In this document: piece after piece, positions 5,782 to 20,344 of the stretch
Position numbering within the stretch: the first letter of the stretch is position 1
How the letters are laid out: each line of letters begins with the position of its first letter
Source of the DNA: an uncultured Oscillospiraceae bacterium
GTDB lineage: Bacteria; Bacillota; Clostridia; Oscillospirales; Oscillospiraceae
Assembly (NCBI GenBank): GCA_934589145.1
Contig: CAKTNW010000035.1
Span: 1-21,651 of the forward strand
Length of the DNA stretch: 21,651 nucleotides
Reading direction: 5' to 3'
Program-made: the position numbers and the translations under genes
Notes under the pieces: model-generated
Seen by the model: only the letters and a program-made list of their open reading frames with translations
What the model was told of the DNA's origin: nothing
Databases searched by the model: none

Positions 5782-5902
5782 GTAGGGGGCGATGCCTACA
5801 TCGCCCCGCCGTATACCAAAATGCCATCGTAAGCTGCACGGGCCGATGCACCCCAAGGGTACTTGTTCCGCTTCGCTCCACTGCGTGGGCATCGGCCCCT
5901 AC
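5782..5902 (-). repeat. Modular palindromic intergenic repeat, copy A
   Basis: The element is bounded by GTAGGGG at 5782 and CCCCTAC ending at 5902. Read on the minus strand it has the same order as copy C at 20260-20344: GTAGGGGCCGATGCCCAC, then ATCGGCCCG, a linker containing TACGATGGCATTT, and a second GC-rich hairpin ending in CTAC. Copy A carries 37 extra bases (5848-5884) in the loop of the first hairpin. It lies between rpoD and the cupin gene. It is non-coding. Confidence 0.8.
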
Positions 5903-5934
5903 AACATGCATGTCCCTACCGAAAGGAGAAACTT

Positions 5935-6270
5935 ATGATCCTGGATTTTGATACCATGGCCGCCAATGCCGTGCCCCATTTCAAGGGCGGCGAGGGACAG
6001 GCCATCGTCCGCAAATTCGACGATCCCCGCATGGGCGCGGTGGTGCATCTGACGCTGCCGGCGGGCTCCTCCATCGGCCTGCACACCCACACCGGCAACT
6101 GCGAGATCATCTATGTGCTCTCCGGCAGCGGCCGGTGCATCGACGACGATGCGGAATATCCCGTCAGCGCCGGGATGTGCCACTACTGTCCCGAGGGGCA
6201 TACCCACAGCATCATCAACACCGGCGACACGGAGCTGAAGCTGCTGGGCGTGCTGCCGGTGGTGAAATAA
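5935..6270 (+). CDS. Small single-domain cupin protein
   Basis: A 111-residue protein that is essentially one cupin beta-barrel. The first metal-binding motif is visible as GLHTHTGNCEIIYVLSGSG (two His and a Glu) and the second as GHTHSIINTG, so a divalent metal site looks intact. Such small cupins range from isomerases and dioxygenases to sugar- or polyketide-binding proteins, and the sequence does not reveal the substrate. The start at 5935 follows AAAGGAGA; the open frame continues upstream into the repeat element but without a ribosome site there. A membrane-protein gene follows after 23 bp and probably shares the message. No clear promoter was found between the upstream repeat and this start, so it may be read through from rpoD. 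Confidence 0.85.
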   Translation: MILDFDTMAANAVPHFKGGEGQAIVRKFDDPRMGAVVHLTLPAGSSIGLHTHTGNCEIIYVLSGSGRCIDDDAEYPVSAGMCHYCPEGHTHSIINTGDTELKLLGVLPVVK

Positions 6271-6293
6271 GAGACCGAAAGGAGACTTCCACT

Positions 6294-6725
6294 ATGGATA
6301 CCACACTTGGCTATATCCTCTGCACCCAGTCGCCGGGTCTGTTTCTGGCGGCGCTGATGCTGCTGCTGTTTTACTTTGCCCGCCGCCGCGAGCATCACGT
6401 CCGGGCTGTTATGGATCTGGTGCTGTGCATCGTCTGCGCCGCGGGCGGCGTGGCGCTGTACTTCGTGGGCATGGGCGCGGGCCACTTCACCATCCAGGAT
6501 TTCTACGCCATCCGCGTGCCCGGCTGGATCGGCATGGGCGTGGTGATGGCCGTCAACGTATGGCTGGTGATCCGGGGCTTCCTGGCGGTGAACCGCCGCC
6601 GCACGGCGGAGAAGAACGCCAACCGTGCCGCCAATGTCCAGGCCATGCAGGAAGAGCAGGCGCGCAAGGCTGCCGAGAAGCAGGCCGCCCTGGACAGCGA
6701 TACGACCCCTCCCGAGGAGAAGTAA
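6294..6725 (+). CDS. Small membrane protein of unknown function, three predicted TM helices
   Basis: A 143-residue protein not recognised as a known family. Three hydrophobic segments are visible: about residues 8-27 (ending in ARRREHH), 36-58 (LVLCIVCAAGGVALYFVGM) and 73-96 (GWIGMGVVMAVNVWLVI). A hydrophilic Ala/Arg/Glu-rich tail of about 45 residues follows, probably a cytoplasmic helix. It starts at ATG 6294 behind GAAAGGAGA, 23 bp after the cupin stop, and ends just before a strong terminator. The context suggests it is co-expressed with the cupin, but that gives no function. Confidence 0.75.
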   Translation: MDTTLGYILCTQSPGLFLAALMLLLFYFARRREHHVRAVMDLVLCIVCAAGGVALYFVGMGAGHFTIQDFYAIRVPGWIGMGVVMAVNVWLVIRGFLAVNRRRTAEKNANRAANVQAMQEEQARKAAEKQAALDSDTTPPEEK

Positions 6726-6741
6726 ACGGCTGAAAACGTAC

Positions 6742-6782
6742 AAAAAACCAGCGCCGCTGCAAGGCAGCGGCGCTGGTTTTTT
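6742..6782. terminator. Bidirectional terminator between convergent genes
   Basis: A 19-bp perfect stem: A6CCAGCGCCGCTGC (6742-6760) pairs with 6764-6782 around the loop AAG. T6 on the + side and A6 on the other allow termination of both the membrane-protein transcript (+) and the dcyD transcript (-), whose stop lies only 7 bp away. Confidence 0.95.
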
Positions 6783-6788
6783 GTGAGC

Positions 6789-7745
6789 TTATCCCAGATC
6801 CACGTCGATGGCGAACAGGCCGCCCGCGCCGCCGGAATACAGGTACAGCACATTGTCGGTGGGTTTGAACTTTCCCTCACGGGCCAGCTTGATGAGACCG
6901 GCGAAGGCCTTGCCGGTGTACACGGGGTCCAGGAACAGGCCCTCGTTCTCCGCCATCAGGCGGATGGCGGCATTGCCCTCGGCAGAGGGGATGGCGTAGC
7001 CGGGGCCGCACATGTTCACCAGATGGACGTCCTCGGTGGTGGGGATGAAATCCAGCTCCAGCAGCTTGGCCGCCTCCTGCATGATGCGGGTGGTGATCAC
7101 GTCGAAGGGATCGCTGTCCACCATCATGCCCACCACCTGGGTGTCGGGCATGAACAGCTTCGCACCCAGGGCCACACCGGCGTGGGTGCCGCCGCTGCCC
7201 TCGGCGCAGCAGACGTAGTCGAACTTCATGCCGGTATCGGCGATCTCCTTCATGCAGTTGACGTAGCCCAGGGCGCCGATGGCGTTGGAGCCGCCGCAGG
7301 GGATCTTATAGTAGGGCTTGCCCAGCGCCCGGCCCACCCGATCCATCTCGGCGTAGATATCGTCATAGCTGTCGGTATCCATGAAGCGCACGTCGGTGTC
7401 CATGAGATACTCCAGCAGCTGGTTGCCCTTCCGGTCGGTGACGCCCCGCTTTTTCAGGATCAGGATGGGGGTCATGCCCAGCTTTTTGGCGCAGGCCGCC
7501 GTCAGCATAGCGTGGTTGGACTGGGCGCCGCCGGTGGTGAACACCACCTCCGCCCCCTGGCGCTTGGCATCGGCCAGCAGGAACTCCAGCTTGCGCACCT
7601 TGTTGCCGCCCAGGCCGATGCCCGTCAGGTCATCCCGCTTGATATACACGTTGGTGCCCAGGATGCGGCTGATGTTCTCCAGCTTCTGGATGGGCGTGGG
7701 CAGAACGGCCAGCGGGATCCGGGGAAAGGACTGTAAAGACTTCAT
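6789..7745 (-). CDS. dcyD: PLP-dependent D-cysteine desulfhydrase / ACC deaminase family
   Basis: A 318-residue fold-type II PLP enzyme. The lysine that binds PLP is K49 in GLGGNKVRKLEF, followed by the GGAQSNHA motif (75-79 region), the glycine-rich phosphate loop GSGGTHAG, and YLYSGGAGG near the C-terminus. The family includes D-cysteine desulfhydrase (D-cysteine to pyruvate, H2S and ammonia), ACC deaminase and L-cysteate lyase. The His in QSNH favours the desulfhydrase side, but the substrate is not proven. The start at 7745 has AAGGAGG upstream. It lies 33 bp behind a PatB/MalY-type C-S lyase on the same strand, and the two are probably one operon devoted to breaking down sulfur amino acids. 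A terminator follows the stop directly. Confidence 0.85.
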   Translation of the reverse strand: MKSLQSFPRIPLAVLPTPIQKLENISRILGTNVYIKRDDLTGIGLGGNKVRKLEFLLADAKRQGAEVVFTTGGAQSNHAMLTAACAKKLGMTPILILKKRGVTDRKGNQLLEYLMDTDVRFMDTDSYDDIYAEMDRVGRALGKPYYKIPCGGSNAIGALGYVNCMKEIADTGMKFDYVCCAEGSGGTHAGVALGAKLFMPDTQVVGMMVDSDPFDVITTRIMQEAAKLLELDFIPTTEDVHLVNMCGPGYAIPSAEGNAAIRLMAENEGLFLDPVYTGKAFAGLIKLAREGKFKPTDNVLYLYSGGAGGLFAIDVDLG

Positions 7746-7778
7746 AGAATAAACCTCCTTATGGAAAATGCGTGAATT

Positions 7779-8954
7779 TTACCGGCTGCGGATGGCCTGC
7801 TCCATGCGGACAAGGCCCGCCTCCAGCACATGACGGGGACAGGCGATGCTCCACCGCTCGAAGCCCGCGCCCTCCGCGCCGAAGTGATAGCCCTCGGTAA
7901 AGAAGCAGCGGGCCTTTTCCCCCATGAACCGCTCCTGCTCCTTGGCATCCATCCCCAAAAAGCGGAAGTCCAGCCAGGGCAGATAGGTGGCCTCCAGCGG
8001 TGTGATGCCCACCTCCGGCAAATGATCGCGGCAGAAGTCCGACAGCAGGCGGAAGTTGCCGTCCAGCACCGTCAGCAGCTGATCCAGCCAGCCCTCGCAC
8101 CGCTCCCATACGGCGATGCAGGCGGCGTAGGACAGAATGTCACGGCCGGAATCCTCCCGCATGGCGCGGTAGGCCCGGCGGCGCTCCTCGTCCGCCATCA
8201 CCACCGCCGCGCCCTTGATGGCGGCAATGTTGAAGGTCTTGGTGCAGGAGGTGGAGACGGCGCAGTTGCGCAGATACTTCTCCTCCAGCGACGCCATGGA
8301 CACGAAGCTGTGGCCCGGCAGGATCAGGTCGGCGTGGATCTCGTCAGCGATAATGAACACCCCGTGGCGCAGGCAGATGTCCGCGATCTGTTCCAGCTCA
8401 TCCCGCGTCCACACCCGGCCCACCGGGTTGTGGGGATTGCACAGGATCAGCATGGTGGTATCCTCCCGGCGGCACAGCGTCTCCAGCAGGGCAAAGTCGA
8501 TGGTATAGCGGCGATCCGCCCCCAAGCGCATGGGACAGTCCAGACGGCGGCGCTCCAGCGGCTCCGGCGCGTCCAGGAAGGGCGGATACGCCGGGGTCAT
8601 CACCACGATGCCGTCCCCCGGTCGGGTGAAGCAGCGGATCATCCGGTGCATGGCGCCCAGCACACTGTCGGCGTCCACCACCCACTGGCCGGGAATGTCC
8701 ACGCCGTGGCGGCGCTGCATCCAGCGGCGGAAGGCGGCGATGTACTCCCGCGGCGTGCGGGTATAGCCGAATACCCGGCCCTTCATGAAGTCCTGTACGC
8801 CCTCACTCAGCTCCGACGGCGGCAGGAAATCCATATCCGCCACGGAGAAGGGCACGATCCCCCGAGGCACGTCGGGGTAGCGCGCCTTCATCAGCTCATA
8901 TTTCTCCGCGCCGGTGTCCCAGCGATCCGGCAGCGTGGTAAAATCATAGGTCAT
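7779..8954 (-). CDS. PatB/MalY-family C-S lyase (cystathionine beta-lyase type aminotransferase fold)
   Basis: A 391-residue fold-type I PLP enzyme of the MalY/PatB branch, which cleaves C-S bonds in cystathionine, cysteine or related thioethers to give a thiol, pyruvate and ammonia. Evidence: an N-terminal RWDTGAEKYE and SVADMDF signature, the CNPHNPVG motif (172-179), ADEIH with PLP-contacting D204, the Schiff-base lysine K239 in CTKTFNIA, and a C-terminal FERWSIACPR with the carboxylate-binding arginine. The usual SKTFN reads TKTFN here, a mild change. The start at 8954 follows AGGAGGA and a near-consensus promoter. It is transcribed first, with the dcyD-like gene second, and is divergent from a ThrE-type exporter. 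An aminotransferase role is possible but less likely given these motifs. Confidence 0.88.
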   Translation of the reverse strand: MTYDFTTLPDRWDTGAEKYELMKARYPDVPRGIVPFSVADMDFLPPSELSEGVQDFMKGRVFGYTRTPREYIAAFRRWMQRRHGVDIPGQWVVDADSVLGAMHRMIRCFTRPGDGIVVMTPAYPPFLDAPEPLERRRLDCPMRLGADRRYTIDFALLETLCRREDTTMLILCNPHNPVGRVWTRDELEQIADICLRHGVFIIADEIHADLILPGHSFVSMASLEEKYLRNCAVSTSCTKTFNIAAIKGAAVVMADEERRRAYRAMREDSGRDILSYAACIAVWERCEGWLDQLLTVLDGNFRLLSDFCRDHLPEVGITPLEATYLPWLDFRFLGMDAKEQERFMGEKARCFFTEGYHFGAEGAGFERWSIACPRHVLEAGLVRMEQAIRSR

Positions 8955-8988
8955 GGGATGTTCCTCCTATTTCCGTTATGTACCCCCT

Positions 8989-9016
8989 ATTGTATCGATT
9001 TTCCCGCCGCTGTCAA
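8989..9016 (-). promoter_or_regulatory. Promoter for patB-dcyD
   Basis: Minus strand: TTGACA (9011-9016), 16 bp spacer, TACAAT (8989-8994). Transcription would begin about 25 bp before the ribosome site. Its -35 lies 14 bp from the -35 of the divergent exporter promoter. Confidence 0.88.
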
Positions 9017-9030
9017 GCGCCAAAAGACGG

Positions 9031-9059
9031 TTGACATTTTCCGCCGTCCCGCCTATAAT
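9031..9059 (+). promoter_or_regulatory. Exact-consensus promoter for the ThrE-type gene
   Basis: TTGACA at 9031-9036, a 17-bp spacer and TATAAT at 9054-9059 match the housekeeping consensus exactly. The expected start is near 9066, giving a leader of about 42 nt. Confidence 0.92.
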
Positions 9060-9107
9060 GTGACGCGGATTTTTTGCAATGCCATTTCTCAGTCTGAGGT
9101 AACATAT

Positions 9108-10352
9108 ATGATGGATTACTATCTTTTGACCGATGTGGCGGCCCGGCTGGGCTGCCAGCTGGCCCTGGCTGGGGCCGAGACCTTCCGGGTGGAGGACACC
9201 GTTCGCCGGGTGCTGGGCGCCTACGGCGTACACTGCGAGGTGTTCGCTATCCCCAACAGCCTGACCGTCAGCTTTGAGGCGGCCAACGGCAAGCCCCTGA
9301 CCATCCTGAAGCGCATCGGCTACCACGGCAACGATCTGGAGGCGCTGGAGCAGCTGAACGCCCTCAGCCGCCGCATCTGCCAGGAAAAGCCGGAGGTGGA
9401 GGTGGCCTCGGAGTGGCTGCGGCAGACTATCGTCCAGTGCCGGGTGTACCGCCCCGCCATCGCCTATCTGGGCAGCTTTCTGGGGGGACTGGGCTTCGCG
9501 CTGGTGTTCGGCGGTTCCATCCGGGACTGCCTGTGGGCGGGGCTGATGGGTCTGATCATCGGCTGCGTCAACCGGTTCATGGATCGGGTGGAGGCCAACC
9601 CCTTCTTCAGCACCATCATCGCCTCGTTCCTGATGGCGGTGCCCGCCTACATCGCGGCGGGGCTGGGGTGGCTGGATAACCCAGACGCGGCCATCATCGG
9701 CGCGCTGATGATCCTGGTGCCGGGACTGCTGATCACCAATTCCATGCGGGACATCATCTACGGCGACACCAACTCCGGCGTGGTGCGCATCGTGCAGGTC
9801 TTTCTGTCGGCTTTCGCCATCGCGCTGGGCACGGCGGCGGCCTGGCGGGTGACGCAGCCGGTCTACGGTCTCAGTGCCGTGGTGGAGACGGCGTCGCTGG
9901 TGTGGCCCGCCTGGGCACAGGCCCTGGCGGTGTTTGTGGGGTGCTATGGCTTTTCCATCCTGTTCAACATCCACGGCAAGTGGATGGTGCTGTGCGTCAT
10001 CGGCGGCACAGCCACCTGGATGATCTATCTGCTGTGTGAGGCGCTGGGCATGGACGTTTACACCATGAACCTGTACGCCACCATCTTTGCCGCCCTGTAT
10101 TCCGAGGTGATGGCCCGGGTGCGCCGCTGTCCGGTGACGCCGTATCTGGTCATCGCGATCTTCCCGCTGCTGCCCGGCGCGGGCGTGTATTACACCATGA
10201 GCCTGGGGCTCCAGGGGGAGATGCTCGAGGCGCTGCGCAAGGGGCTGGAGACGGCGGGCATCGCCGGTTCTCTGGCGGTGGGCATCCTGCTGGTGTCCAC
10301 AGTGTTCCGGCTGCTGACGGCCTTCCTGGCCCGCAGGGAGTGGAAAAGATAG
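9108..10352 (+). CDS. ThrE-family threonine/serine exporter (fused YjjP-YjjB type)
   Basis: A 414-residue integral membrane protein. Residues 1-115 are the soluble N-terminal domain of the family, with the characteristic GAETFRVEDTVRRVLGAYG near 20-40 and a beta-rich segment (FAIPNSLTVSFEAANGK). About ten hydrophobic helices follow, including the YjjB-like second half (VETASLVWPAWAQALAVFVGCYGFSILFNI onwards, cited here as a region around residues 265-300). Known members export threonine and serine using the proton gradient. In Clostridia the two halves are often separate genes; here they are fused. The start could be 9108 or the adjacent ATG 9111; GAGGT at 9096-9100 favours 9108. It is divergent from two cysteine-type lyases, which hints at a role in amino-acid overflow, but the substrate is not proven. 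Confidence 0.88.
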   Translation: MMDYYLLTDVAARLGCQLALAGAETFRVEDTVRRVLGAYGVHCEVFAIPNSLTVSFEAANGKPLTILKRIGYHGNDLEALEQLNALSRRICQEKPEVEVASEWLRQTIVQCRVYRPAIAYLGSFLGGLGFALVFGGSIRDCLWAGLMGLIIGCVNRFMDRVEANPFFSTIIASFLMAVPAYIAAGLGWLDNPDAAIIGALMILVPGLLITNSMRDIIYGDTNSGVVRIVQVFLSAFAIALGTAAAWRVTQPVYGLSAVVETASLVWPAWAQALAVFVGCYGFSILFNIHGKWMVLCVIGGTATWMIYLLCEALGMDVYTMNLYATIFAALYSEVMARVRRCPVTPYLVIAIFPLLPGAGVYYTMSLGLQGEMLEALRKGLETAGIAGSLAVGILLVSTVFRLLTAFLARREWKR

Positions 10353-10393
10353 CAGCGCGGCTGTGAAGAACAGTCCCTGCAGCGATACACGAA

Positions 10394-10418
10394 AACCGCC
10401 ACCCGATGGGTGGCGGTT
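10394..10418 (+). terminator. Intrinsic terminator after the exporter gene
   Basis: AACCGCCACCC (10394-10404), loop GAT, and GGGTGGCGGTT (10408-10418), followed by TTCTTCTTATT. The U-tract is interrupted but adequate. It lies about 40 bp after the stop at 10352. Confidence 0.85.
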
Positions 10419-10502
10419 TCTTCTTATTGGAAGGGACACGCTGTCAGGCGTGTTTGCCCTTGTGAATCGATGGTATCGTGCTTTGCCGGCTGCCCACCGA
10501 CC

Positions 10503-11459
10503 TTACCCGAAATACTTTTCCCGGAAGGGGACACGTTCCACCTGGAAGCTGCGGCCCCGGAGATAGTTCAGGATCCCCGCGTCGGTGGGGAAGTCGAAGG
10601 TCAGCTTGTAGGAGTACAGCGCCTGCCGCGTCTCGCCGTAGCGGCGGTTCACGTCGCCCCGGCCGTACTTGCCGTCCCCCAGCAGGGGACAGCCCATGTG
10701 GGCGAAGGTGGCGCGGATCTGATGGGTGCGGCCGGTCTCCAGCCCTACCTCCACCAGGGCCAGCTCGCCCCGGCGCTCCAGCGTCTCGTAGGTGGTGACG
10801 GCGGTCTTGCCGCCGGGGACGGGCTTGGTGCGGACGGACACCTCTTTCTTCTTCTCATCCTTCACCAGAAAGACCTCCACCCGGCCCTTGGGCGGCTGGG
10901 GTGCGCCCACCGTGACGCAGAGGTAGCGCTTGTCCATCTCCCGGTCACGGATCTTCTCGTTGATGATCCGCAGCGTCTCGGCGTTCTTGGCGGCGATGAC
11001 GATGCCGCCGGTGTTGCGGTCGATGCGGTTGCACAGGGCGGGGGTAAAGGCGTTCTCCCACTTGGGGTTCCACTCCCGCTTCTGATAGAGGTACGCCTGG
11101 ATGTGGTTGATGAGGGTGTTGACCTTTTCCGTCTCGTCGGCGTGCACCACCAGTCCCGGCCGCTTGTCCAGCAGCATCAGGTTCTCGTCCTCGTACACGA
11201 TGGTAAGGCTGGGCTTGAAGAGGGTCAGGAACATGTTGTCCTCGCGGGGCTTGTCAAAGAACTCGTCGTTGATGTATAATTGCAGCACGTCGCCCTCACA
11301 AAGCCGCTGATCCCGCTGGGCCCGCGCGCCGTTGCACTTGATGCGCTTCAGGCGGATGTATTTCTGCAGCAGCGCCGGCGGCAGCAGCGGCAGAGATTTG
11401 GATACGAAGCGGTCAAGCCGCTGTCCGGCGTCGTTTTTTCCGATGGTCAGCTCCCGCAT
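10503..11459 (-). CDS. RluA-family 23S rRNA/tRNA pseudouridine synthase
   Basis: A 318-residue enzyme that isomerises specific uridines in rRNA (or tRNA) to pseudouridine. An N-terminal S4 RNA-binding domain is seen at about 10-65 (GQRLDRFVSKSLPLL, then LQKYIRLKRIKCNG). The catalytic aspartate is D147 in NRIDRNTGG, the family's RLD motif with Ile in place of Leu. The downstream ETGRTHQIRATFAHMGCP and LGDGKYG motifs are intact. The start at 11459 follows GGGGAGGT; an in-frame ATG at 11600 would place the promoter inside the gene. Which uridine is modified cannot be read from sequence; RluC/RluD-like and paralogue groups all share these motifs. It is a single gene, divergent from yceD-rpmF, with which it shares a ribosome-related theme. 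Confidence 0.92.
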   Translation of the reverse strand: MRELTIGKNDAGQRLDRFVSKSLPLLPPALLQKYIRLKRIKCNGARAQRDQRLCEGDVLQLYINDEFFDKPREDNMFLTLFKPSLTIVYEDENLMLLDKRPGLVVHADETEKVNTLINHIQAYLYQKREWNPKWENAFTPALCNRIDRNTGGIVIAAKNAETLRIINEKIRDREMDKRYLCVTVGAPQPPKGRVEVFLVKDEKKKEVSVRTKPVPGGKTAVTTYETLERRGELALVEVGLETGRTHQIRATFAHMGCPLLGDGKYGRGDVNRRYGETRQALYSYKLTFDFPTDAGILNYLRGRSFQVERVPFREKYFG

Positions 11460-11492
11460 GGGCGCACCTCCCCAAAAGATTGGTCTGCCTTC

Positions 11493-11521
11493 ATTGTACC
11501 CAAGGGCGGGACAAATGTCAA
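11493..11521 (-). promoter_or_regulatory. Promoter for the pseudouridine synthase gene
   Basis: Minus strand: TTGACA (11516-11521), 17 bp spacer, TACAAT (11493-11498). This is about 34 bp before the start codon. Confidence 0.9.
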
Positions 11522-11579
11522 AGGGAATCTGCGGCGGGGGAGAGGGCAGAAAAATATGGTGAAAAATTGCAAAAAAGAT

Positions 11580-11608
11580 TTGACAACCCTTGTTTTTCAC
11601 GTTATAAT
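11580..11608 (+). promoter_or_regulatory. Exact-consensus promoter for yceD-rpmF
   Basis: TTGACA at 11580-11585, 17 bp spacer, TATAAT at 11603-11608. It leaves a short leader of about 20 nt with GAGGT before the ATG at 11636. A strong promoter fits a ribosomal-protein operon. Confidence 0.93.
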
Positions 11609-11635
11609 ACTATCTGTGTCATTGCGAGGTGTACT

Positions 11636-12133
11636 ATGCTTTTGAATGTGAACAAGCTGCTGCATACGCCGGACGTCGCTCAGGATGTCCAGTTTACCAT
11701 GGATCTGAGCGACTTGGAATTCGGCGGCGGCTACCCCGTGTCCCAGCCCGTCACTGTGGAAGGCAGGCTTCGGAACAAGGCTGGCGTCCTGCTGTGTACG
11801 CTGGAGGCAAGTACGACGCTTCACTGCGTCTGTGACCGCTGCGCAAAGCCCTTCACCAAGGACAAGACCGTGACCTACCAGTGCGTGCTGGCCCAGGAGC
11901 GGCAGTCCGACGATGACGAGGATATCGTGCTGCTGGACAACGACGAGGTGGACTTGGGCGAAGTGGCTCGCACTGCGTTTATCCTTGAGATGGACACGAA
12001 AAACCTCTGCTCACCGGACTGCAAGGGCCTGTGCCCCGGCTGCGGCGTGGATCTGAATGTAGAGCCCTGCCGCTGTAAGAAGGCGGTCGACCCGCGTCTT
12101 GCCAAGCTGGCCCAGCTGTTGGAGGATCGGTAA
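11636..12133 (+). CDS. yceD: YceD/DUF177 family protein
   Basis: A 165-residue soluble protein of the DUF177 (YceD) family, found before rpmF in most bacteria and linked to ribosome or 23S rRNA maturation in some of them. It carries an early cysteine cluster (HCVCDRC, C64-C69) and a second one (CSPDCKGLCPGCG at 125-137, then CRC at 145-147). These resemble metal-binding ligands and are typical of Gram-positive members. An acidic stretch (SDDDEDIVLLDNDEVD) lies between them. The start at 11636 agrees with the GAGGT site and strong promoter. The rpmF start follows 60 bp after the stop, so the two are co-transcribed. Confidence 0.9.
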   Translation: MLLNVNKLLHTPDVAQDVQFTMDLSDLEFGGGYPVSQPVTVEGRLRNKAGVLLCTLEASTTLHCVCDRCAKPFTKDKTVTYQCVLAQERQSDDDEDIVLLDNDEVDLGEVARTAFILEMDTKNLCSPDCKGLCPGCGVDLNVEPCRCKKAVDPRLAKLAQLLEDR

Positions 12134-12193
12134 GCGGAAGCTGAACTATTATACTACTGCTCACGGCAGTTAAAAGACCAAGGAGGTGTCAAC

Positions 12194-12391: not shown

Positions 12392-12413
12392 GTCATCGAC
12401 GTGTGTCCTTGTT

Positions 12414-12439
12414 AGGAGGGAAGATTTTTCTTCCCTCCT
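12414..12439 (+). terminator. Terminator after rpmF
   Basis: AGGAGGGAAGA (12414-12424), loop TTTT, and TCTTCCCTCCT (12429-12439), followed by TACTTTTTTG. Confidence 0.93.
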
Positions 12440-12477
12440 TACTTTTTTGCGATATTCTATTTTCTCATACAAAAAAG

Positions 12478-12500
12478 AAGGCCGTCCCTTGGACGGCCTT
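12478..12500 (-). terminator. Terminator after the ribU-type gene
   Basis: Stem AAGGCCGTCC (12478-12487) with GGACGGCCTT (12491-12500), 3-nt loop. On the minus strand it is followed by a T-run (A-run at 12471-12477 on +). It lies 7 bp beyond the stop at 12508. Confidence 0.92.
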
Positions 12501-12507
12501 CCCTATT

Positions 12508-13177: not shown

Positions 13178-13214
13178 CACGCATCAAAAAAGAGCATCAC
13201 GAAAATGCCGTACA

Positions 13215-13331
<117 letters not shown>

Positions 13332-13356
13332 AATTGATCCAGTTGTGTTCGTCAGT

Positions 13357-13483: not shown

Positions 13484-14449
13484 TTACGCTTTTTGCTTTT
13501 CCGGGAACTGGATCTGGGCCAGGATCACGGCGATGAACATGATGACGCAGCCGATGTACTCCCGCACACTCATCTGCTGGTGCAGGATGATGGCGCCCGC
13601 GATGACGGCGAACACGCTCTCCAGGCTCAGCAGGATGGTGACCACCGTGGGGTTGGAGTCCTTCTGGGCCAGGATCTGCAGCGTATAGCCCACGCCGGAG
13701 GAGAAGATGCCCACATACAGGATGGGCAGGGCGCAGGCCAGAATGGCATTCCAGTCGGGCGCGGCGAAGATGGAGGTGGCCGCCGACACGTCACCGGTGC
13801 CGTTCATGCCCAGGATCACGCACACCACCTTGGCGATGGTGGCCCACACCGCCGCCACGAAGAACTGCACGCAGCTGAGCTTGAGGCCGTCCACCGTGGC
13901 GGTGAAGTGGTCGATCACCAGAATGTGGATGGCGAAGCACACGGCACACACCAGCACCAGCAGGTCGCCCGGCGCCAGAGAGAAGTCGCCCTTGATGCAC
14001 AGCAGGTACAGCGCCACCACGCTGCACACCACGGCGATCCAGGTGGACAGATTCACCTTCCGCTTGAAGAACAGTCCGAACACCGGCACCAGCACCACAT
14101 ACAGGGCGGTGATGAAGCCCGCCTTACCGGCGTCGGTACCGGCGGCAAGACCCGCCTGCTGGAAGTTGGAGGCCACCGCCAGCGCCGTACCGCAGCAGAT
14201 GCCGCCGAACCACATCTGGCGGTTGGCGGCCTTCCGCTGGATGGCGGTCAGGCTGGGCTTATCCTTGTTGACGGCGTCAAAAATGACGATCAGCACCAGC
14301 AGCGCCGCCACCGCGATATAGGAGCGGATGGCGTTGAAGGTAAAGGTATCAATGGCGTCGGCGCACAGATCCTGGGCCACAAAGGCCGTGCCCCAGATCA
14401 GGGCCGCCAGAATGGGGAACACCACCTGGCGTACTTGGTTGTGTTTCAT
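13484..14449 (-). CDS. EamA/DMT-superfamily transporter
   Basis: A 321-residue membrane protein with about ten hydrophobic helices in two EamA repeats. The first opens with FPILAALIWGTAFVAQD; the second begins near GDLLVLVCAVCFAIHILVIDH and ends with LLSLESVFAVIAGAIILHQ, the usual glutamate-containing end motif. Members of the drug/metabolite transporter superfamily export amino acids, nucleosides or other metabolites, and the sequence does not reveal which. The start at 14449 follows GAAAGGAAAG; an in-frame ATG at 14512 would lie inside the palindromic repeat. The gene is on the same strand as plsY, but the repeat element of copy B lies between them. No clear promoter was found, so it may depend on read-through. 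Confidence 0.9.
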   Translation of the reverse strand: MKHNQVRQVVFPILAALIWGTAFVAQDLCADAIDTFTFNAIRSYIAVAALLVLIVIFDAVNKDKPSLTAIQRKAANRQMWFGGICCGTALAVASNFQQAGLAAGTDAGKAGFITALYVVLVPVFGLFFKRKVNLSTWIAVVCSVVALYLLCIKGDFSLAPGDLLVLVCAVCFAIHILVIDHFTATVDGLKLSCVQFFVAAVWATIAKVVCVILGMNGTGDVSAATSIFAAPDWNAILACALPILYVGIFSSGVGYTLQILAQKDSNPTVVTILLSLESVFAVIAGAIILHQQMSVREYIGCVIMFIAVILAQIQFPEKQKA

Positions 14450-14494
14450 AGGGAGCTTTCCTTTCTGTATGGGGGAATTGAGAGCAAATATTTC

Positions 14495-14630
14495 GTAGGG
14501 CGGGGTGACCACACCCCGCCGCCGATGGCGCGGAGGATATCGTGCGGCGGCATGTGGTCATGCCGCCCTACACAAATATCCGGATGATCGGTATGTTATC
14601 CTCACGGACGACCGCAAGGGTCGCCCCTAC
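14495..14630 (-). repeat. Modular palindromic intergenic repeat, copy B (composite)
   Basis: Two parts. 14495-14571 opens with GTAGGGCGGGGTGACC and closes with CCGCCCTAC, each end forming its own GC-rich hairpin (GCGGGGTG with CACCCCGC-type; GCGGCATG with CATGCCGC). 14572-14630 contains an AT-richer linker and a third hairpin (CGACC/GGTCG) ending in CCCCTAC. Bases 14491-14523 are identical, in reverse orientation, to 20316-20348 of copy C (33 of 33). It lies between plsY and the EamA gene. Confidence 0.85.
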
Positions 14631-14653
14631 GGGTGCATTTTCGGTGGCCTTCC

Positions 14654-15301
14654 TTACTCCTTCGGCGGGCCGGAGTGCCATTTGAACTTCCGCTCCTGGC
14701 CCTTCAGTAGCCGGGCGATGTTCTCCCGGTGGCACCACACCACCAGCACGGAGATGATCAGGGCCAGGGCCGTATACAGCAGGTTGTGGCCGTAGAACAA
14801 AAACACGGACACCGTCAGGCTGGCACCGGCGAAGATGGAGCCCAGGGACACATACTTGCTCAGCAGCCACAGCGCCGCGAACAATCCCCAGGCCACAAGG
14901 CCCACCTTCCAGCCCAGCATCCAGGCCAGCGTGCCGCCGCACAGGATGCCCTTGCCGCCCTTAAAGCCATAGAAGGCGGGGAACATATGGCCCAGCTCGC
15001 AGCCCACGCCCGCCAGCAGCAGGCCCAGCGTCCAGTCCTGCCGCAGGAAGTAGAACAGGTACCCGCCGATGAGGCCCGCCACCACGGTCTTGCCCATGTC
15101 CAGGGCGATGACGCCCAGGGCGTACTTGGCGCCGTAGGTGCGGTAGAAGTTGGTCAGGCCCGCGTTGCCGCTGCCGTGGGAGCGGACGTCATCCTTGATG
15201 ATGAAGTGGGAGATGACCACCGCGCCGTTGAAGCAGCCCAGCAGATACGACACCAGCAGCGTCAGCGCCACGCAGAATACGGTGAAAATGATGCGGCTCA
15301 T
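14654..15301 (-). CDS. plsY: Acyl-phosphate:glycerol-3-phosphate acyltransferase
   Basis: A 215-residue membrane enzyme that makes lysophosphatidic acid from acyl-phosphate and glycerol-3-phosphate, the first acylation in phospholipid synthesis. The PlsY motifs are present: GSGNAGLTNFYRTYG with the conserved Ser/Asn, DMGKTVVAG, GHMFPAFYGFKGGKG for phosphate binding, and a C-terminal RHREN-like CHRENIARLLKGQE. Five or more hydrophobic helices are visible. The start at 15301 overlaps the der stop by 4 bp (ATGA), so the two are translationally coupled; the frame stays open far back inside der, but that part is not coding. Partner PlsX is not in the window. It is the last gene of the DUF512-der-plsY cluster. 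Confidence 0.95.
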   Translation of the reverse strand: MSRIIFTVFCVALTLLVSYLLGCFNGAVVISHFIIKDDVRSHGSGNAGLTNFYRTYGAKYALGVIALDMGKTVVAGLIGGYLFYFLRQDWTLGLLLAGVGCELGHMFPAFYGFKGGKGILCGGTLAWMLGWKVGLVAWGLFAALWLLSKYVSLGSIFAGASLTVSVFLFYGHNLLYTALALIISVLVVWCHRENIARLLKGQERKFKWHSGPPKE

Positions 15302-16629
15302 GCGTTGTCGTCCTCTCCCTTCTGGCGGATGGTCATAATGACGGGGGTGCCCTCCAGGCCGAACACGCCGCGGATCTGGTTCTCCAGATATCGGCGGTAG
15401 GAGAAGTGGAACAGTTTCTTGTCGTTGCAGAACACCACGAAGTGGGGCGGCTTGATGCCCACCTGGGTCATGTAGTAGATCTTCAGGCGGCGGCCCTTGT
15501 CCGTGGGCGGCTGCACGCGGGTCTGGGCATCGGCCAGGACGCTGTTCAGCATGCCGGTGGTGATGCGCATGGAGGCCTGGTCGTTGACGTAGTTGATCAG
15601 CTCGAAGAGCCGGTTCACCCGCTGACCCGTCAGGGCGGAGATGAACACGATGGGCGCGTAGGTCATGAAGCTGAGATCCCGGCGGATATCCTCCCGCATG
15701 CGGTCCATGGTCTTGTCGTCCTTCTCCACGGCGTCCCACTTGTTCACCACGATGATGCAGGCCTTGCCCGCCTCGTGGGCCAGTCCCGCCACCTTGGTGT
15801 CCTGCTCGGTAACGCCGTCGTTGGCGTCGATCATGATAAGGCACACGTCGCTGCGCTCGATGGCCATGGTGGCCCGCAGGACGCTGTACTTCTCGATATT
15901 GTCGTCCACCTTGGACTTCTTCCGCATACCGGCGGTGTCGATGAAGTTGTACTTGCCCTGGGCGTTCTCGAAATAGCTGTCGATGGCGTCCCGGGTGGTG
16001 CCCGCCACGTTGCTGACGATGACCCGCTGCTCACCCAGGATGCGGTTGGTCAGGCTGGACTTGCCCACGTTGGGCTTGCCGATGATGGCCACCTGGATCA
16101 CGTCGGACTCGTCGTCCTCGTCCTCCTCAGGCGGGAAGTACTTCAGGCACTCGTCCAGCAGGTCGCCGGTGCCGTGGCCGTGAACGGCGGACACGGCGAT
16201 GGGGTCGCCCAGTCCCAGGTTGTAGAACTCATAGAAATCCGGATCCACCGTGCCGGTGGCGTCCATCTTGTTGACGGCCAGCACGATGGGCTTCTTGCTG
16301 CGCTGCAGCATCCCGGCCACCTCCTGGTCGGCGGCGGTCATGCCGGTCTTGATGTCGGTGACGAACACGATCACCGTGGCGTTGTCGATGGCGATCTGGG
16401 CCTGCTCCCGCATGAAAGACAGGATCTGGTTGTCGGTGCTGGGCTCGATGCCGCCGGTGTCCACCAGGCGGAACTTGTGGCCCAGCCACTCGCTTTCGCC
16501 GTAAATGCGGTCGCGGGTGACGCCGGGGGTGTCCTCCACGATGCTCAGGCGCTTGCCGATCAGCTTATTGAACAGCATGGACTTGCCCACGTTGGGGCGG
16601 CCCACGATGGCGATCAAAGGTTTTGCCAT
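15298..16629 (-). CDS. der: Ribosome-assembly GTPase Der (EngA)
   Basis: A 443-residue protein with two tandem GTPase domains and a C-terminal KH-like domain, the unique Der architecture. Domain 1: GRPNVGKS at 10-17, DTPGVTRDR, DTGGIEP, NKMD. A short acidic linker (EEDEDDES) follows. Domain 2: GKPNVGKS near 182-189, DTAGMRKKSKV, NKWD. Der acts in late assembly of the 50S subunit and is essential in well-studied bacteria. The start at 16629 has GGAGGG upstream. It lies 18 bp behind the DUF512 gene and overlaps plsY, so one operon is likely. Nothing unusual in length or motifs. Confidence 0.98.
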   Translation of the reverse strand: MAKPLIAIVGRPNVGKSMLFNKLIGKRLSIVEDTPGVTRDRIYGESEWLGHKFRLVDTGGIEPSTDNQILSFMREQAQIAIDNATVIVFVTDIKTGMTAADQEVAGMLQRSKKPIVLAVNKMDATGTVDPDFYEFYNLGLGDPIAVSAVHGHGTGDLLDECLKYFPPEEDEDDESDVIQVAIIGKPNVGKSSLTNRILGEQRVIVSNVAGTTRDAIDSYFENAQGKYNFIDTAGMRKKSKVDDNIEKYSVLRATMAIERSDVCLIMIDANDGVTEQDTKVAGLAHEAGKACIIVVNKWDAVEKDDKTMDRMREDIRRDLSFMTYAPIVFISALTGQRVNRLFELINYVNDQASMRITTGMLNSVLADAQTRVQPPTDKGRRLKIYYMTQVGIKPPHFVVFCNDKKLFHFSYRRYLENQIRGVFGLEGTPVIMTIRQKGEDDNA

Positions 16630-16647
16630 AGTCTATCCCTCCTCATA

Positions 16648-17949
16648 TCAGACAGCGGTGTCCAGCATGGCGTCCAGCAGGGCGCCGCCGTCGTCGTCCA
16701 CGATCCGGACGGGACTGCCCAGCTCCTGGGACAGCCTGTCCACCGTGTAATCATCCAGAAATACCGTCTCGCCGTGGCGCAGCATGTGCACCGTCAGCAG
16801 CACCCGCCGTCCGGCCACACGGCCCTGTAGCTGCCGGGAGATGTCCTGCCCCGTCAGAAGGCCGGTCACGTCGATGGTGTGGCCGAAGAAATCGTTTTTC
16901 ACGGCGATCACCTCCCCGTCCAGATGGGGGAAGTAGGCCTTCGCCCGGTCCACCAGCGTCTGCATGAAGGGCGCGGCGGCCATGCCGGTGGCGATGGTGA
17001 AGGGGCTGGGGGCGGCGTCCGGCTCCTCCATTTTCATGGCGAAGAGGAACTCCTGCTCCAGCGACCGCAGCATGCCCACGCCGTTCTCGATCTGGCGATA
17101 GCCCTCGTAATAGTCCTCCTCCGGCAGGGGCAGTCCCGCCCGCAGGAACAGCTCGTCGGCGCAGAAGAACCGCCGGGTGCCGTAGCGCCGCAGGTTCTCC
17201 TGTCCGAACTCCTCAGCGATGGCGATGATCTCCCGGGCGCAGTCCTTTTCCACCGGCCGGAGCCTGGCAAGGCCCTGACGGTACTTGGTGATGCCCACCG
17301 GCACCAGCGAACAGCTGGAAAACTGCCACTCCGTCAGATCCCGCAGGGTGCGGCGCAACTGGTCGCCGTCGTTCCAGCCGGGGCACACCACGATCTGGCC
17401 GTTCATGACGATGCCCGCCTGGCAGAAGCGCCGGATGTATTCCAGCGACCGCTCCGCCCCCTTGTTGCCCAGCAGCGTGCAGTGGAGCTGGGGGTCGGTG
17501 GCGTGGACGGACACGTTGATGGGGCTGATGTGCAGGTCGATGATCCGCTGGGCCTCCCGCTCACTGAGGTTGGTCAGGGTGGTGTAGTTGCCCAGCAGGA
17601 AGCTGAGCCGCTCGTCGTCGTCCTTGATGTACAGGGACGGCCGCATGTGGGGCGGCATCTGATCCACGAAGCAGAACAGGCAGTGGTTGGCGCACTGGTG
17701 CATCTCGTCCATCAGATAGGTGGGGAAGTTCAGGCCCAGGTCGCGGCCCTCCTCCTTGCGGACGGTGACCGTCCGCTCCTGCCCGTCCTTCATAAGCCGC
17801 AGCACCGCCACCGGATCGTAGCCATAGAACCGGTAGTCCAGCACGTCCACGATGTGGTGGCCGTTGATCTCCAGCAGCTGTTCCCCCACGGTGATCCCGG
17901 CTCTCTCCGCCGGGGAATGGGGGTCAATGGAAGTGATGACGGTGCTCAT
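16648..17949 (-). CDS. DUF512 protein with PDZ domain and radical-SAM-like Cys motif
   Basis: A 433-residue protein. Residues 1-65 form a PDZ-like domain (SPAERAGITVGEQLLEINGH). A cysteine cluster C86-x3-C90-x2-C93 (CANHCLFC) follows, the spacing of radical-SAM enzymes that hold a 4Fe-4S cluster. The rest includes SVHATDP and GWNDGDQL motifs and the DUF512 C-terminal domain (ending DNDFFG-like region VKNDFFGHTIDVTGLLTGQD). The family is annotated as Fe-S oxidoreductases related to NifB/MoaA and is widely kept beside der in Clostridia, but its reaction is unknown. The start at 17949 follows AAGGAG and a likely promoter. It heads the operon with der and plsY, suggesting a housekeeping role, which is inference. 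Confidence 0.88.
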   Translation of the reverse strand: MSTVITSIDPHSPAERAGITVGEQLLEINGHHIVDVLDYRFYGYDPVAVLRLMKDGQERTVTVRKEEGRDLGLNFPTYLMDEMHQCANHCLFCFVDQMPPHMRPSLYIKDDDERLSFLLGNYTTLTNLSEREAQRIIDLHISPINVSVHATDPQLHCTLLGNKGAERSLEYIRRFCQAGIVMNGQIVVCPGWNDGDQLRRTLRDLTEWQFSSCSLVPVGITKYRQGLARLRPVEKDCAREIIAIAEEFGQENLRRYGTRRFFCADELFLRAGLPLPEEDYYEGYRQIENGVGMLRSLEQEFLFAMKMEEPDAAPSPFTIATGMAAAPFMQTLVDRAKAYFPHLDGEVIAVKNDFFGHTIDVTGLLTGQDISRQLQGRVAGRRVLLTVHMLRHGETVFLDDYTVDRLSQELGSPVRIVDDDGGALLDAMLDTAV

Positions 17950-17998
17950 AGTAACGTTCTCCTTACAAAAGGGCATAGGAATACATGATAACCATACT

Positions 17999-18027
17999 AT
18001 TATACCGATTTTCACCCCATTACGCAA
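17999..18027 (-). promoter_or_regulatory. Promoter for the DUF512-der-plsY operon
   Basis: Minus strand: TTGCGT (18022-18027), 17 bp spacer, TATAAT (17999-18004). The leader is about 45 nt. Confidence 0.7.
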
Positions 18028-18389
18028 GATAAAAAACCGTATATTCCATTGTTTTTCCCAGTATACGCCATTCAACACCAAAAGTAAAACGCATGATTTC
18101 GATGGATGCCATGAATTTTTGGAATGGACTGAGAGAGACATAGACAGGAGCCGCGGCAACGCCGCGGCTCCTGCTGCATATGCTGTTGTCCCCTGTCCCG
18201 CCCTGCCGGGGAAATCGACGCCGCGGTCGTAACGATGCACGGTTCTGATGCGCGTGTGCGGTATGCAGCGCGTGCGTTCTGCGGTGGGGGATCGAACCCC
18301 GGAGCTGCGCCCGCTCCATCCATACTGCGAGGACTCATTCTCAGCCTCAGAGATGGCGTCCGCCTTTTCCCGGCTCCATAGCTTGCGCG
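18028..18389. other. Gene-free, hairpin-rich spacer
   Basis: About 360 bp between the DUF512 promoter and the DIP1984 stop. It holds a strong GC hairpin at 18145-18173, a short palindrome GCATATGC near 18176, and on the minus strand two neighbouring hairpins around 18284-18321: GGAGC/GCTCC with a 7-nt loop, then GGGG-TTCGATC-CCCC, which resembles a tRNA T-arm. No complete cloverleaf can be drawn. Open frames here (for example 18020-18319, minus) look non-coding. No known RNA family is recognised. Confidence 0.45.
18145..18173. repeat. 13-bp perfect GC-rich inverted repeat
   Basis: CAGGAGCCGCGGC (18145-18157) pairs with 18161-18173 around AAC. Neither side carries a T-run, so it is not a standard terminator, though it lies downstream of the DIP1984 gene on the minus strand. 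Confidence 0.75.
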
Positions 18390-18845
18390 TTATTGCAGCT
18401 CAGTGGTCCAGTTCAGGCCCTGGATGGTCTCCTCCAGCAGCCGCAGGTCGCGGGACATATCGTCCACCTGCTTCTGCATCTGGGACACCTTCACGGTGCT
18501 GACGATCCTGATCTCCGTCCGCAGGCCCCGGGGCACCACGTCGCTGGCGTTCTGCAGGAACTCCCGGTAAAGGCCCAGCTTCATTTTCAGGCAGTCCCGC
18601 CGGGCCAGCAGCGCCGTCAGGCTCTCGCCCGTTTCGCTGCGGGCGGCGGTGTTGGTCAGGTTGATGCGGCAGATCAGCTCCTCCAATTCGGCGCTGACGC
18701 TCTCCATCTCGGCAAGCAGCGCCTTGGGATCCTCGGCGGGCTGCTCCCCCTCCTGCACCTTGGCGTTGTTCATCAGCCGCGCGCCCAACTGGGCCATGCG
18801 CCGCTGCAGGTCGGCCCGCTGGGCCAGTGCGTTGGCAAGCTTCAT
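18390..18845 (-). CDS. DIP1984 family protein
   Basis: A 151-residue, highly helical protein matching the DIP1984 family (sometimes labelled septicolysin) along its length. Family-typical segments are visible: MKLANALAQRADLQRRMAQL at the start, NAKVQEGEQPAEDP near 27-40, ELICRINLTNTAAR in the middle and IQGLNWTTELQ at the end. No signal peptide or membrane segment is seen, and it is probably a coiled-coil soluble protein. Its function is not known; the toxin-like name should not be taken as evidence. The start at 18845 follows AAGGAGTG, only 4 bp after the threonine ammonia-lyase stop, so it is translated from the same message. Confidence 0.88.
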   Translation of the reverse strand: MKLANALAQRADLQRRMAQLGARLMNNAKVQEGEQPAEDPKALLAEMESVSAELEELICRINLTNTAARSETGESLTALLARRDCLKMKLGLYREFLQNASDVVPRGLRTEIRIVSTVKVSQMQKQVDDMSRDLRLLEETIQGLNWTTELQ

Positions 18846-18849
18846 GTCC

Positions 18850-20046
18850 TCACTCCTTGATGGTATAGCCCCGGTCGGCCAGATACTGATAGAGCTGGTG
18901 GATGTGCTCGTGGTTGCGGGTCTCCACCACCATGCGGACGCGGCAGGAGCCCACGCCCACCTTCATGCTGCTGCGCTCGTGATATACCTCCAGCACGTTG
19001 ACGCCCTCGTGGGACAGGGCCGCCAGATAGGTGGCCAGGGCGTTGGGCTGGTCGGGCAGCACGGTGGAGAAGCTGGCGATGCGCCCCTCGGCGGTCAGGC
19101 CGTGCTTGATGATGCGCTCCAGCATGGTCACGTCCACGTTGCCGCCGGACAGCAGGGCGCACACGGTCTTGCCCTTCAGATCCAGCTTGCCGGACATGAC
19201 CGCCGCCACGCTGACGGCGCCCGCGCCCTCGGTGATCAGCTTCTGCTTCTCCAGAATGGTCAGGATGGCCGCGGCGATCTCGCTCTCGCTGACGGTGATG
19301 ACCTTGTCCACATACTGGCGGCACATGTCAAAGGTCAGGGTACCGGCGGTCTTTACCTGGATGCCGTCTGCCATGGTGCCCACCTGGGGCAGGGTGATGA
19401 TCTTGTCCTGCCGCAGGGCCTCATACATGCTGGCGGCGCCCTCGGCCTGCACGCCGATGACCTGGCAGGCGGGCTTCAGCTCCTTCACGGCCTTGGCCAC
19501 GCCGGAGATCAGTCCGCCGCCGCCGATGGCCGTGATGATCACGTCCACATCGGGAAGCTGCTGCAGGATCTCCAGGCCGATGGTGCCCTGACCGGCCATG
19601 ATGCTGTAATCGTCAAAGGGATGGATGAAGGTATAGCCCTTCTCATCCCGCAGGCGGATGGCCTCGGCATAGGCGTCGTCGTACACGCCGGGCACCAGCA
19701 CCACCTCCGCGCCGTAGCTGCGGGTGGCCTCGATCTTGGACAGGGGCGCGCCCTGGGGGATGCAGATGACGGCGTGGATGCCCATGTCCCGGGCGGCAAA
19801 CGCCACGCCCTGGGCATGGTTTCCGGCGGAGCAGGCGATAACGCCCCTCGCTTTCTCCTCGTCCGACAGCGTGGCGATCTTGTAGTATGCGCCCCGCAGC
19901 TTGAACGCGCCGGTCTTCTGCAGGCAGTCAGCCTTCAGAAAGAGACGGCAGTCCTGGGTGATACCGGTGCTGGGGATCACGGGCGTTTTGTTGATGACGC
20001 CGGACAGTACCCGCTGGGCGTCGTGCAGCATGGCCATAGTCAGCAT
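18850..20046 (-). CDS. ilvA: Threonine ammonia-lyase (threonine dehydratase) with ACT domain
   Basis: A 398-residue fold-type II PLP enzyme converting threonine to 2-oxobutyrate and ammonia. Seen: the PLP lysine K49 in TGAFKLRGA, SAGNHAQG near 74-81, the phosphate loop IGGGGLISG, and LLSGGNVD near the end of the catalytic part. A single ACT-like domain occupies about 320-398. This short, one-ACT form resembles the TdcB-like/Clostridial version rather than the longer biosynthetic IlvA with two ACT-like repeats, so the role could be catabolic or in isoleucine synthesis. The ACT domain suggests control by an amino acid. The start at 20046 follows AAGGAGG; the upstream open frame crosses the promoter and is not used. 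The DIP1984 gene follows. Confidence 0.93.
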   Translation of the reverse strand: MLTMAMLHDAQRVLSGVINKTPVIPSTGITQDCRLFLKADCLQKTGAFKLRGAYYKIATLSDEEKARGVIACSAGNHAQGVAFAARDMGIHAVICIPQGAPLSKIEATRSYGAEVVLVPGVYDDAYAEAIRLRDEKGYTFIHPFDDYSIMAGQGTIGLEILQQLPDVDVIITAIGGGGLISGVAKAVKELKPACQVIGVQAEGAASMYEALRQDKIITLPQVGTMADGIQVKTAGTLTFDMCRQYVDKVITVSESEIAAAILTILEKQKLITEGAGAVSVAAVMSGKLDLKGKTVCALLSGGNVDVTMLERIIKHGLTAEGRIASFSTVLPDQPNALATYLAALSHEGVNVLEVYHERSSMKVGVGSCRVRMVVETRNHEHIHQLYQYLADRGYTIKE

Positions 20047-20107
20047 AGTGGTTCCTCCTTCACATTTGTGCGTGGGACGTATACAATATTTGATTTTTTG
20101 TATTTCT

Positions 20108-20136
20108 ATCATATCATACACCGCCCGCAAATGCAA
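20108..20136 (-). promoter_or_regulatory. Promoter for ilvA
   Basis: Minus strand: TTGCAT (20131-20136), 17 bp spacer, TATGAT (20108-20113). Downstream, an inverted repeat ATACAA (20081-20086) / TTGTAT (20098-20103) lies in the leader next to the expected start point and could be an operator. Confidence 0.6.
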
Positions 20137-20162
20137 GCAATTACAGGGGTTTTTTCGGAAAT

Positions 20163-20191
20163 TTGACAAACGGGGGAATTTTGTCTATAAT
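20163..20191 (+). promoter_or_regulatory. Exact-consensus promoter for the E2-like gene
   Basis: TTGACA at 20163-20168, 17 bp spacer, TATAAT at 20186-20191. It is divergent from ilvA. Transcription from about 20198 would include repeat copy C in a leader of about 210 nt. Confidence 0.9.
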
Positions 20192-20211
20192 ATATGTTCG
20201 GTTAAATATCC

Positions 20212-20344
20212 GTAGGGGCCGGCGTCCCCGACGGCCCGCCCAGCAATCGCACCATCCCCGTAGGGGCCGATGCCCACATCGGCCCGCACGGCATACGATG
20301 GCATTTCCGGTCAATGGCGGCGGGGTGTGGTCACCCCGCCCTAC
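20212..20344 (+). repeat. Modular palindromic intergenic repeat, copy C (composite)
   Basis: Unit 1 (20212-20239) is a hairpin starting GTAGGGGCC. Unit 2 (20260-20344) starts GTAGGGGCCGATGCCCAC, continues with a hairpin, the linker TACGATGGCATTT (20294-20306), and a second hairpin GGCGGGG with CCCCGCC, ending CTAC. Its end matches copy B in reverse orientation, and its start and linker match copy A in reverse orientation. Confidence 0.85.

Follow-up and report, generated by a model that had tools for sequence, protein, structure and literature searches.

What are the three similar intergenic elements in a short stretch of DNA from an uncultured Oscillospiraceae bacterium, and how did they come to lie there? 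The stretch (contig CAKTNW010000035.1, 21,651 nucleotides, hereafter the window, whose numbering gives all positions below) holds copy A at 5782-5902, copy B at 14495-14630 and copy C at 20212-20344. Our findings identify these elements as clusters of GTAG-tagged repetitive extragenic palindromic sequences (REPs), largely set as head-to-head pairs, the layout of REP doublets forming hairpins (REPINs) and of bacterial interspersed mosaic elements (BIMEs). Relatives of this bacterium carry short REP-associated tyrosine transposases (RAYTs), HUH enzymes with a single tyrosine, and most of the RAYT genes that we could parse hold a pair of such hairpins within the coding sequence itself, a layout that is a new form of the REP/RAYT system. 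As an overall explanation we favour, at about even confidence, REPs gained in the window's lineage and moved by a RAYT, with the pair inside the RAYT gene kept as DNA, as a reference hairpin.

The repeating unit and its layout

The sequence of the three copies, read directly, resolves into eight GTAG-tagged hairpins of one common design, the typical unit being GTAG followed by a 9-bp stem with a 4-base loop (e.g. ACCA, CCCA or CCTA):

REP A1, 5782..5807, + strand: GTAG + GGGGCGATG-CCTA-CATCGCCCC; 26/26 bases identical to a hairpin within the L139 RAYT gene
REP A2, 5840..5902, - strand: GTAG + GGGCCGATGC stem with a 39-base loop; head-to-head partner of A1 (direct reading)
REP B1, 14495..14520, + strand: GTAG + GGCGGGGTG-ACCA-CACCCCGCC; the L172 RAYT gene has the same stem, with 1 loop base differing
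REP B2, 14546..14571, - strand: GTAG + GGCGGCATG-ACCA-CATGCCGCC; head-to-head partner of B1; stem common in genome G112
REP B3, 14606..14630, - strand: GTAG + GGGCGACC-CTTGC-GGTCGTCC, with one G.T pair (direct reading)
REP C1, 20212..20237, + strand: GTAG + GGGCCGGCG-TCCC-CGACGGCCC, 9 bp with a G.A mismatch at pair 7; 26/26 bases identical to the right hairpin within the L197 RAYT gene
REP C2, 20260..20285, + strand: GTAG + GGGCCGATG-CCCA-CATCGGCCC; the commonest unit among the sequences examined, with 25 occurrences
REP C3, 20319..20344, - strand: hairpin identical to B1; head-to-head partner of C2 (direct reading, alignment)

Copy A consists of the head-to-head pair A1/A2, copy B of the pair B1/B2 with B3 as a third unit, and copy C of C1 and C2 pointing rightward and C3 leftward. 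The opposed neighbours A1/A2, B1/B2 and C2/C3 measure 60-121 bp end to end, as in REPINs and BIMEs, and the tag stands directly beside a short palindromic stem, as in GTAG REPs, with a G.A mismatch in C1 and a long loop in A2. The initial annotation had described one modular palindromic element with conserved ends. These ends, the coordinates and the shared stretches were confirmed by direct reading and alignment (B and C are 100% identical over 33 bases, 14491-14523 and 20316-20348; A and C share a linker, 5819-5848 and 20277-20306, at 87%, with TACGATGGCATTT present in both), and the hairpin architecture is real, but the repeating unit is the single GTAG hairpin, not the whole copy. The idea of interchangeable cassettes holds in so far as A and C have the linker and one stem in common and differ in their other hairpin; the different stems, however, represent different REP subfamilies. 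The linker common to A and C was found in the window only, not elsewhere among the loci compared, and the 30 best of 99 matches between window copies and other loci span 27-36 nt, that is, a hairpin and a few flanking bases.

Such units are not expected by chance: the window holds five perfect GTAG + 8-bp hairpins, whereas 300 first-order Markov sequences of equal length average 0.013 and never exceed 1. The same strict rule, applied to 97 other loci (~1.28 Mb), returned 8 hairpins, 7 of them in four loci that had been chosen for a Y1/RAYT gene. No Rfam family covers the window elements, the sole gathering-level match in the window being a flavin mononucleotide (FMN) riboswitch. GTAG repeats have been described from Proteobacteria, Cyanobacteria, Chloroflexi and the PVC group (PMC3733652; Di Nocera and others 2013); the main text of that paper names no Firmicutes or Clostridia. 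It describes a 6-13 bp palindrome with loops of 2-4 bases, often fitting CMA, and head-to-head dimers 20-100 bp apart, mostly intergenic and divided into many stem subfamilies. Tag, palindrome, loop and dimer layout are alike in the window and its relatives; a difference is that many stem families coexist here in one genome. Our literature search returned no report of REPs in Oscillospiraceae.

Copy C has a further setting of its own. Within 20163-20406 a TTGACA-18-TATAAT promoter-like pair precedes it, and after it starts a gene whose product has a 2-oxoacid dehydrogenase acyltransferase-type domain; copy C is therefore probably in the 5' untranslated region of that gene.

Empty sites and the hairpin family in relatives

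The dnaG-rpoD region of the window matches uncultured Oscillospiraceae/Clostridia, the closest being L001 and L002 at ~86% nucleotide identity. Comparison of orthologous sites, as the initial annotation had proposed, yielded sites without the element at all three loci and in both sister genomes. At copy A the spacer from the rpoD stop to the next start codon (5751..5934) measures 184 bp, against 11 bp in both sisters; the stretch around copy B (14475..14653) has 179 unaligned bp, against 10 in both; and that around copy C (20171..20382) has 212 unaligned bp, against 59 in sister L267, the hairpins being absent from sister L268 as well. At each locus the flanking genes are collinear between window and sisters, and the additional DNA extends beyond the hairpin cluster itself. 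Most simply, this comparison of sequences suggests that the elements were gained in the window's lineage after its split from the sister species. The same loci bear on the view that the elements are mainly RNA structures (terminators or mRNA stabilisers) under selection, and not mobile DNA. Such a role would agree with the intergenic position of all three copies and with the place of copy C between a TTGACA/TATAAT-like promoter and a start codon. Against it stand the two sisters, each with the genes but without the hairpins at all three loci, the many sites in relatives at which these hairpins turn up again, and the absence of a matching Rfam family. We regard this view as very improbable.

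The genome-wide counts that follow refer to relatives, not to the window's own genome. The search pattern was that of the four perfect 9-bp window stems, with the stem letters free on both sides. It matches 39/250 genomes of the family, with most copies in G112 (237), and a reversed-pattern control gave zero in all 250; all four window stem types recur among the pattern matches listed. The supposition that GTAGGGG repeats are common in Oscillospiraceae is thus borne out for part of the family only, as judged by this one pattern, and the objection named in the initial annotation, that only these three copies might exist, fails on the many copies in relatives. The REP-like nature suggested there is supported by the GTAG tag, the hairpins and their opposed pairing, and by the large copy numbers in relatives. 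In sampled stretches, which in G112 and G017 include RAYT genes, 23 of 842 GTAGs head a hairpin in G113, 102 of 835 in G112 and 21 of 598 in G017; six control tags in the same stretches gave 1 to 15 hairpins each, though most of them occur more often than GTAG.

The stems co-vary. This check, likewise proposed beforehand, was made by counting free pairs, with no structure fitted, in units that fit the design with six unconstrained pairs: 45/80 unique units are fully paired at all six (maximum 7 in 500 shuffles of the 3' arms) and 71/80 pair at five or six (maximum 19 in 500), with 37 distinct stems among these 71. Position 7 holds a non-standard pair in 21/71 unique 9/4 units, and in the window it is the site of the G.A mismatch of C1; such a pair may be a recognition feature.

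RAYT genes with a hairpin pair inside

Which enzyme could move such units? In the known system the TnpAREP enzyme binds the folded hairpin together with the GTAG tag on single-stranded DNA. The REP-associated Y1 transposase that the initial annotation had anticipated exists in relatives, with an internal hairpin pair that it had not foreseen. PF01797 matches 9/16 relatives, some at full IS200 strength and some weakly, and four weak loci (L085, L086, L088 and L092) bear GTAG hairpins. Among curated models NF047646 (REP_Tyr_transpos) fits three of these proteins best; their scores, 66.6-76.7 bits, fall short of its cut-off of 80. The predicted fold of a homologue (mean predicted local distance difference test score, pLDDT, 81) has its best PDB match in 4er8, the structure of a RAYT in complex with a REP hairpin, and the HUH and Y..NP alignment columns are nearly invariant among homologues; motif and predicted Y1 fold thus point to RAYTs. 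NF047646 matches 49/80 genomes searched, namely 31/39 pattern-positive versus 15/36 pattern-negative genomes (p 0.001) and 3/5 taken for other reasons. These proteins resemble the RAYT/TnpAREP enzymes of REPtrons, such as E. coli rayT, in the HUH motif, the single Tyr, NF047646 as best model and REP-like hairpins near the gene. With IS200/IS605 they have the Y1 HUH fold and, presumably, hairpin recognition in common, whereas the relatives' TnpA proteins score up to 138 bits to PF01797, versus ~21-36 for the RAYT-like hits.

From 90 of the 106 NF047646 matches and five PF01797 loci (95 loci in all), 69 distinct frames were parsed, 4 loci being duplicates and 22 unparsed. Forty-eight of these 69 RAYT frames have a GTAG hairpin at both of two internal places, head-to-head; 9/69 have hairpins only at flanking distance, and 5/69 have neither an internal nor a flanking hairpin by our rule, although one of the five, L169, does carry the pair at both places, with a stem that begins slightly after GTAG. 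A looser motif parsed 4 of the 22 leftover loci (one with both, one with the left only, two with neither). The left hairpin lies on the sense strand and most often starts 123 nt before the HUH codons, and the right, on the opposite strand, most often ends 67 nt after them. In 44/48 genes the left GTAG falls on a codon boundary, so that GTA GGG reads Val-Gly, a pair invariant in 54 aligned homologues. Ten non-overlapping control tags, put through the same scan, gave 0/69 frames with both arms; an eleventh, TAGG, overlaps GTAG and picks up the GTAG hairpin again, at a shifted position. Whereas the REPs of a REPtron border the coding sequence, in most of the RAYTs parsed here the pair lies inside it. 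The six matches to a REP pattern near E. coli K-12 rayT are, in contrast, all outside the gene, and the hairpins of insertion sequences flank the gene according to PMC8266576, section 29.

The two arms also match each other. Their stems are identical in 31/48 genes, versus at most 6 in 2000 permutations, and in 29/46 once two near-copies are dropped; stem and loop length are common to both arms in 46/48, and there are 32 distinct left stems among the internal-pair RAYTs. One arm repeats the DNA of the other as its reverse complement, so that the two encode different peptides, and on this reasoning from sequence protein conservation does not explain the match. In the predicted structure a beta hairpin has the left segment at its tip, and the right segment is the loop connecting the HUH strand to the following helix.

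How widespread this layout is was gauged in two further samples. Across the phylum, 167/348 genomes match NF047646; of the best 30 loci, 10 were parsed and 0 had the internal pair, and three of these phylum loci have hairpin arrays outside the RAYT gene. The class sample was chosen by likeness to internal-pair RAYTs and is hence biased: 29/30 loci were parsed, 20 with both arms, 6 with the right only and 3 with neither, and of twenty further loci 12 were parsed (5 both, 3 right only, 1 left only, 3 neither). As far as these sampled genes indicate, many members of one group of short RAYTs from Clostridia have the internal pair.

Could the pair be passive decoration? REPs would then insert wherever the loops of the RAYT tolerate them, the arms would be alike through gene conversion with abundant same-stem REPs, and the pair would have no function. 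REPs read in frame inside other proteins are already published (PMC3733652, section 15), in varied, unrelated genes and at mostly different sites according to that section, and both internal places are loops in the predicted model. Inside and outside placements are also scattered on a first, unmasked RAYT tree (11 changes versus a shuffled mean of 12.8, with 54-58 of 500 shuffles as low), a tree that has 38/66 inner branches poorly supported. What fits badly with decoration are the two fixed places on opposite strands, with matching arms in proteins of ~40% identity, and the usual GTA-GGG frame. The intragenic REPs and Rickettsia palindromic elements (RPEs) treated in the same section differ accordingly from the present case, in which two fixed places in the transposase itself carry matching arms. 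We consider decoration unlikely; together with autoregulation, taken up below, it is one of the two main rivals of the explanation that we favour. A literature search found nothing on REPs within RAYT coding sequences; the lists of REP-containing genes that accompany PMC3733652 as additional files lay outside its coverage.

Hairpin and enzyme

Does the hairpin follow the enzyme? Once the residues coded by the hairpins are masked, a RAYT tree of 55 rows requires 20 changes in stem/loop geometry, versus a minimum of 25 in 1000 shuffles. Individual stems were also traced across genomes. Three G017 RAYTs carry the stem GGAAGGCAG, of which that genome has 30 copies (6 within those genes) and 79 other genomes none; GGACGGCC, from a G113 RAYT, has 27 copies there (2 within the gene), 5 in G191, 4 in G232 and 0 in 77 others. 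A RAYT beside REPs of the same stem in one genome, the mark of a REPtron, is thus seen in relatives, less clearly for a third stem, GGGACGCCG. Besides the matches given with the units above, the C2 stem occurs within other RAYTs (L139, L150 and L200) and the B1/C3 stem within the L172 RAYT, in each case with loop letters differing.

The distribution along one chromosome hints at how REPs spread. In G113 (one contig, 2.19 Mb) a general pattern gave 93 hits, of which 78 remained after 2 non-hairpins and all hits in five RAYT loci were dropped. Of these, 66/78 fall within 31% of the chromosome, and the strand preference switches near mid-chromosome (14+/5- versus 11+/48-, p 2e-5; by cluster 8/2 versus 3/25, p 1e-4); 26/27 GGACGGCC copies are confined to a 0.2-Mb stretch in which their RAYT lies too. 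G113 alone suggests a local, strand-biased spread of REPs. In G094 the 80 copies extend across a 4.3-Mb chromosome with no strand bias either side of 2.2 Mb (18+/21- versus 17+/24-), and since the G113 bias is absent there, we treat local, fork-linked spreading as no more than a lead, drawn from a single genome.

Several results weigh against the explanation that we favour. No exact insertion boundary is visible at the three empty sites, whose flanks have diverged, nor is a target duplication of the kind expected for a MITE of a DDE transposon. RAYT, copy number and stem inventory all come from relatives' genomes, not from the window's own. The B2 and B3 stems have no exact RAYT partner among the RAYT genes compared, and NF047646 is unmatched in 8/39 pattern-positive genomes. 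Among the parsed RAYT frames, 7/69 have a hairpin at the right internal place only and 14/69, by our rule, at neither internal place. On the masked alignment, stem similarity follows protein identity weakly (Mantel r 0.11, with 51/2000 permutations as high), and GGGACGCCG, carried by a G051 RAYT, has 9 copies in G051 but 60 in G185, 7 in G232 and 1 in G126. Two further results count against the excess of the hairpins over chance: under a looser rule (one mismatch, offset) in the 97 other loci, GTAG, with 18.8 hits per 1000 GTAG, is not set apart from 14 control tags (10.9-25.2), and the bare word GTAGGG is not clearly enriched, at 11 occurrences in the window versus 7.1 expected, a count reached by 9/100 shuffles. 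An unmasked RAYT tree (12 changes, r 0.2) was discarded, the loop residues coded by the hairpins having inflated the link.

Of separate interest are the 60 GGGACGCCG copies of G185, whose RAYT was seen in G051 but not in G185: this REP family may be an orphan, the matching RAYT having perhaps been lost from G185 or being missing from its assembly.

The mechanism that we infer is as follows. The window REPs would be non-autonomous and mobilised in trans by a RAYT which, by analogy with the known REP/RAYT system, would read the hairpin together with its GTAG tag in single-stranded DNA and copy or move it, and which, as in TnpAREP, would cleave near the bound hairpin. Work on the pathway of REP dissemination is described as still in progress in the section cited above (PMC8266576, section 29). 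Many short RAYTs of this bacterial group bear their presumed target pair in their own gene, the sense hairpin ~120 nt before the HUH codons and its partner ~67 nt after, both hairpins coding at the same time for protein loops. The pair is most likely retained as DNA, a reference hairpin tied to the gene of its reader. Enzyme and hairpin would change together, divergence of the RAYT giving rise to new stem families, and matching stems would spread as intergenic REPs. Under autoregulation the window elements would still be RAYT-spread REPs, and the internal pair would be an operator: the RAYT would bind the hairpins of its own gene, in mRNA or single-stranded DNA, and so limit its own expression. 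The hairpins lie within the gene, hence would be in the mRNA, and both arms match one enzyme; a single operator, however, would not require two complete GTAG units, set head-to-head at two fixed places, and we hold this option to be comparably unlikely to decoration. The boldest reading of the pair, which we place just short of even, is that in this bacterial group an HUH transposase carries its own recognition sequence in its coding sequence, two protein loops doubling as a DNA address that is inherited with, and changes with, its reader and seeds new REP families.

Two features elsewhere in the window are also recorded. The FMN riboswitch (13212-13335, - strand, 108.7 bits) lies upstream of a same-strand gene for an energy-coupling factor (ECF) transporter S component (PF12822), which is probably a riboflavin transporter. 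The intergenic stretch 6740-6784 is a perfect 21-bp inverted repeat with a 3-base loop and A-rich and T-rich ends, likely a terminator for both strands.

If a RAYT gene displays the hairpin that its product appears to read, enzyme-hairpin pairs would be predictable from sequence alone. The genes described here offer dozens of natural RAYT-hairpin pairs, with different stems and five main stem/loop geometries, and, if this account is true, the co-evolution of a single-stranded-DNA enzyme and its target becomes directly testable. Our findings also bring gut Oscillospiraceae into a system whose descriptions come mainly from other phyla.

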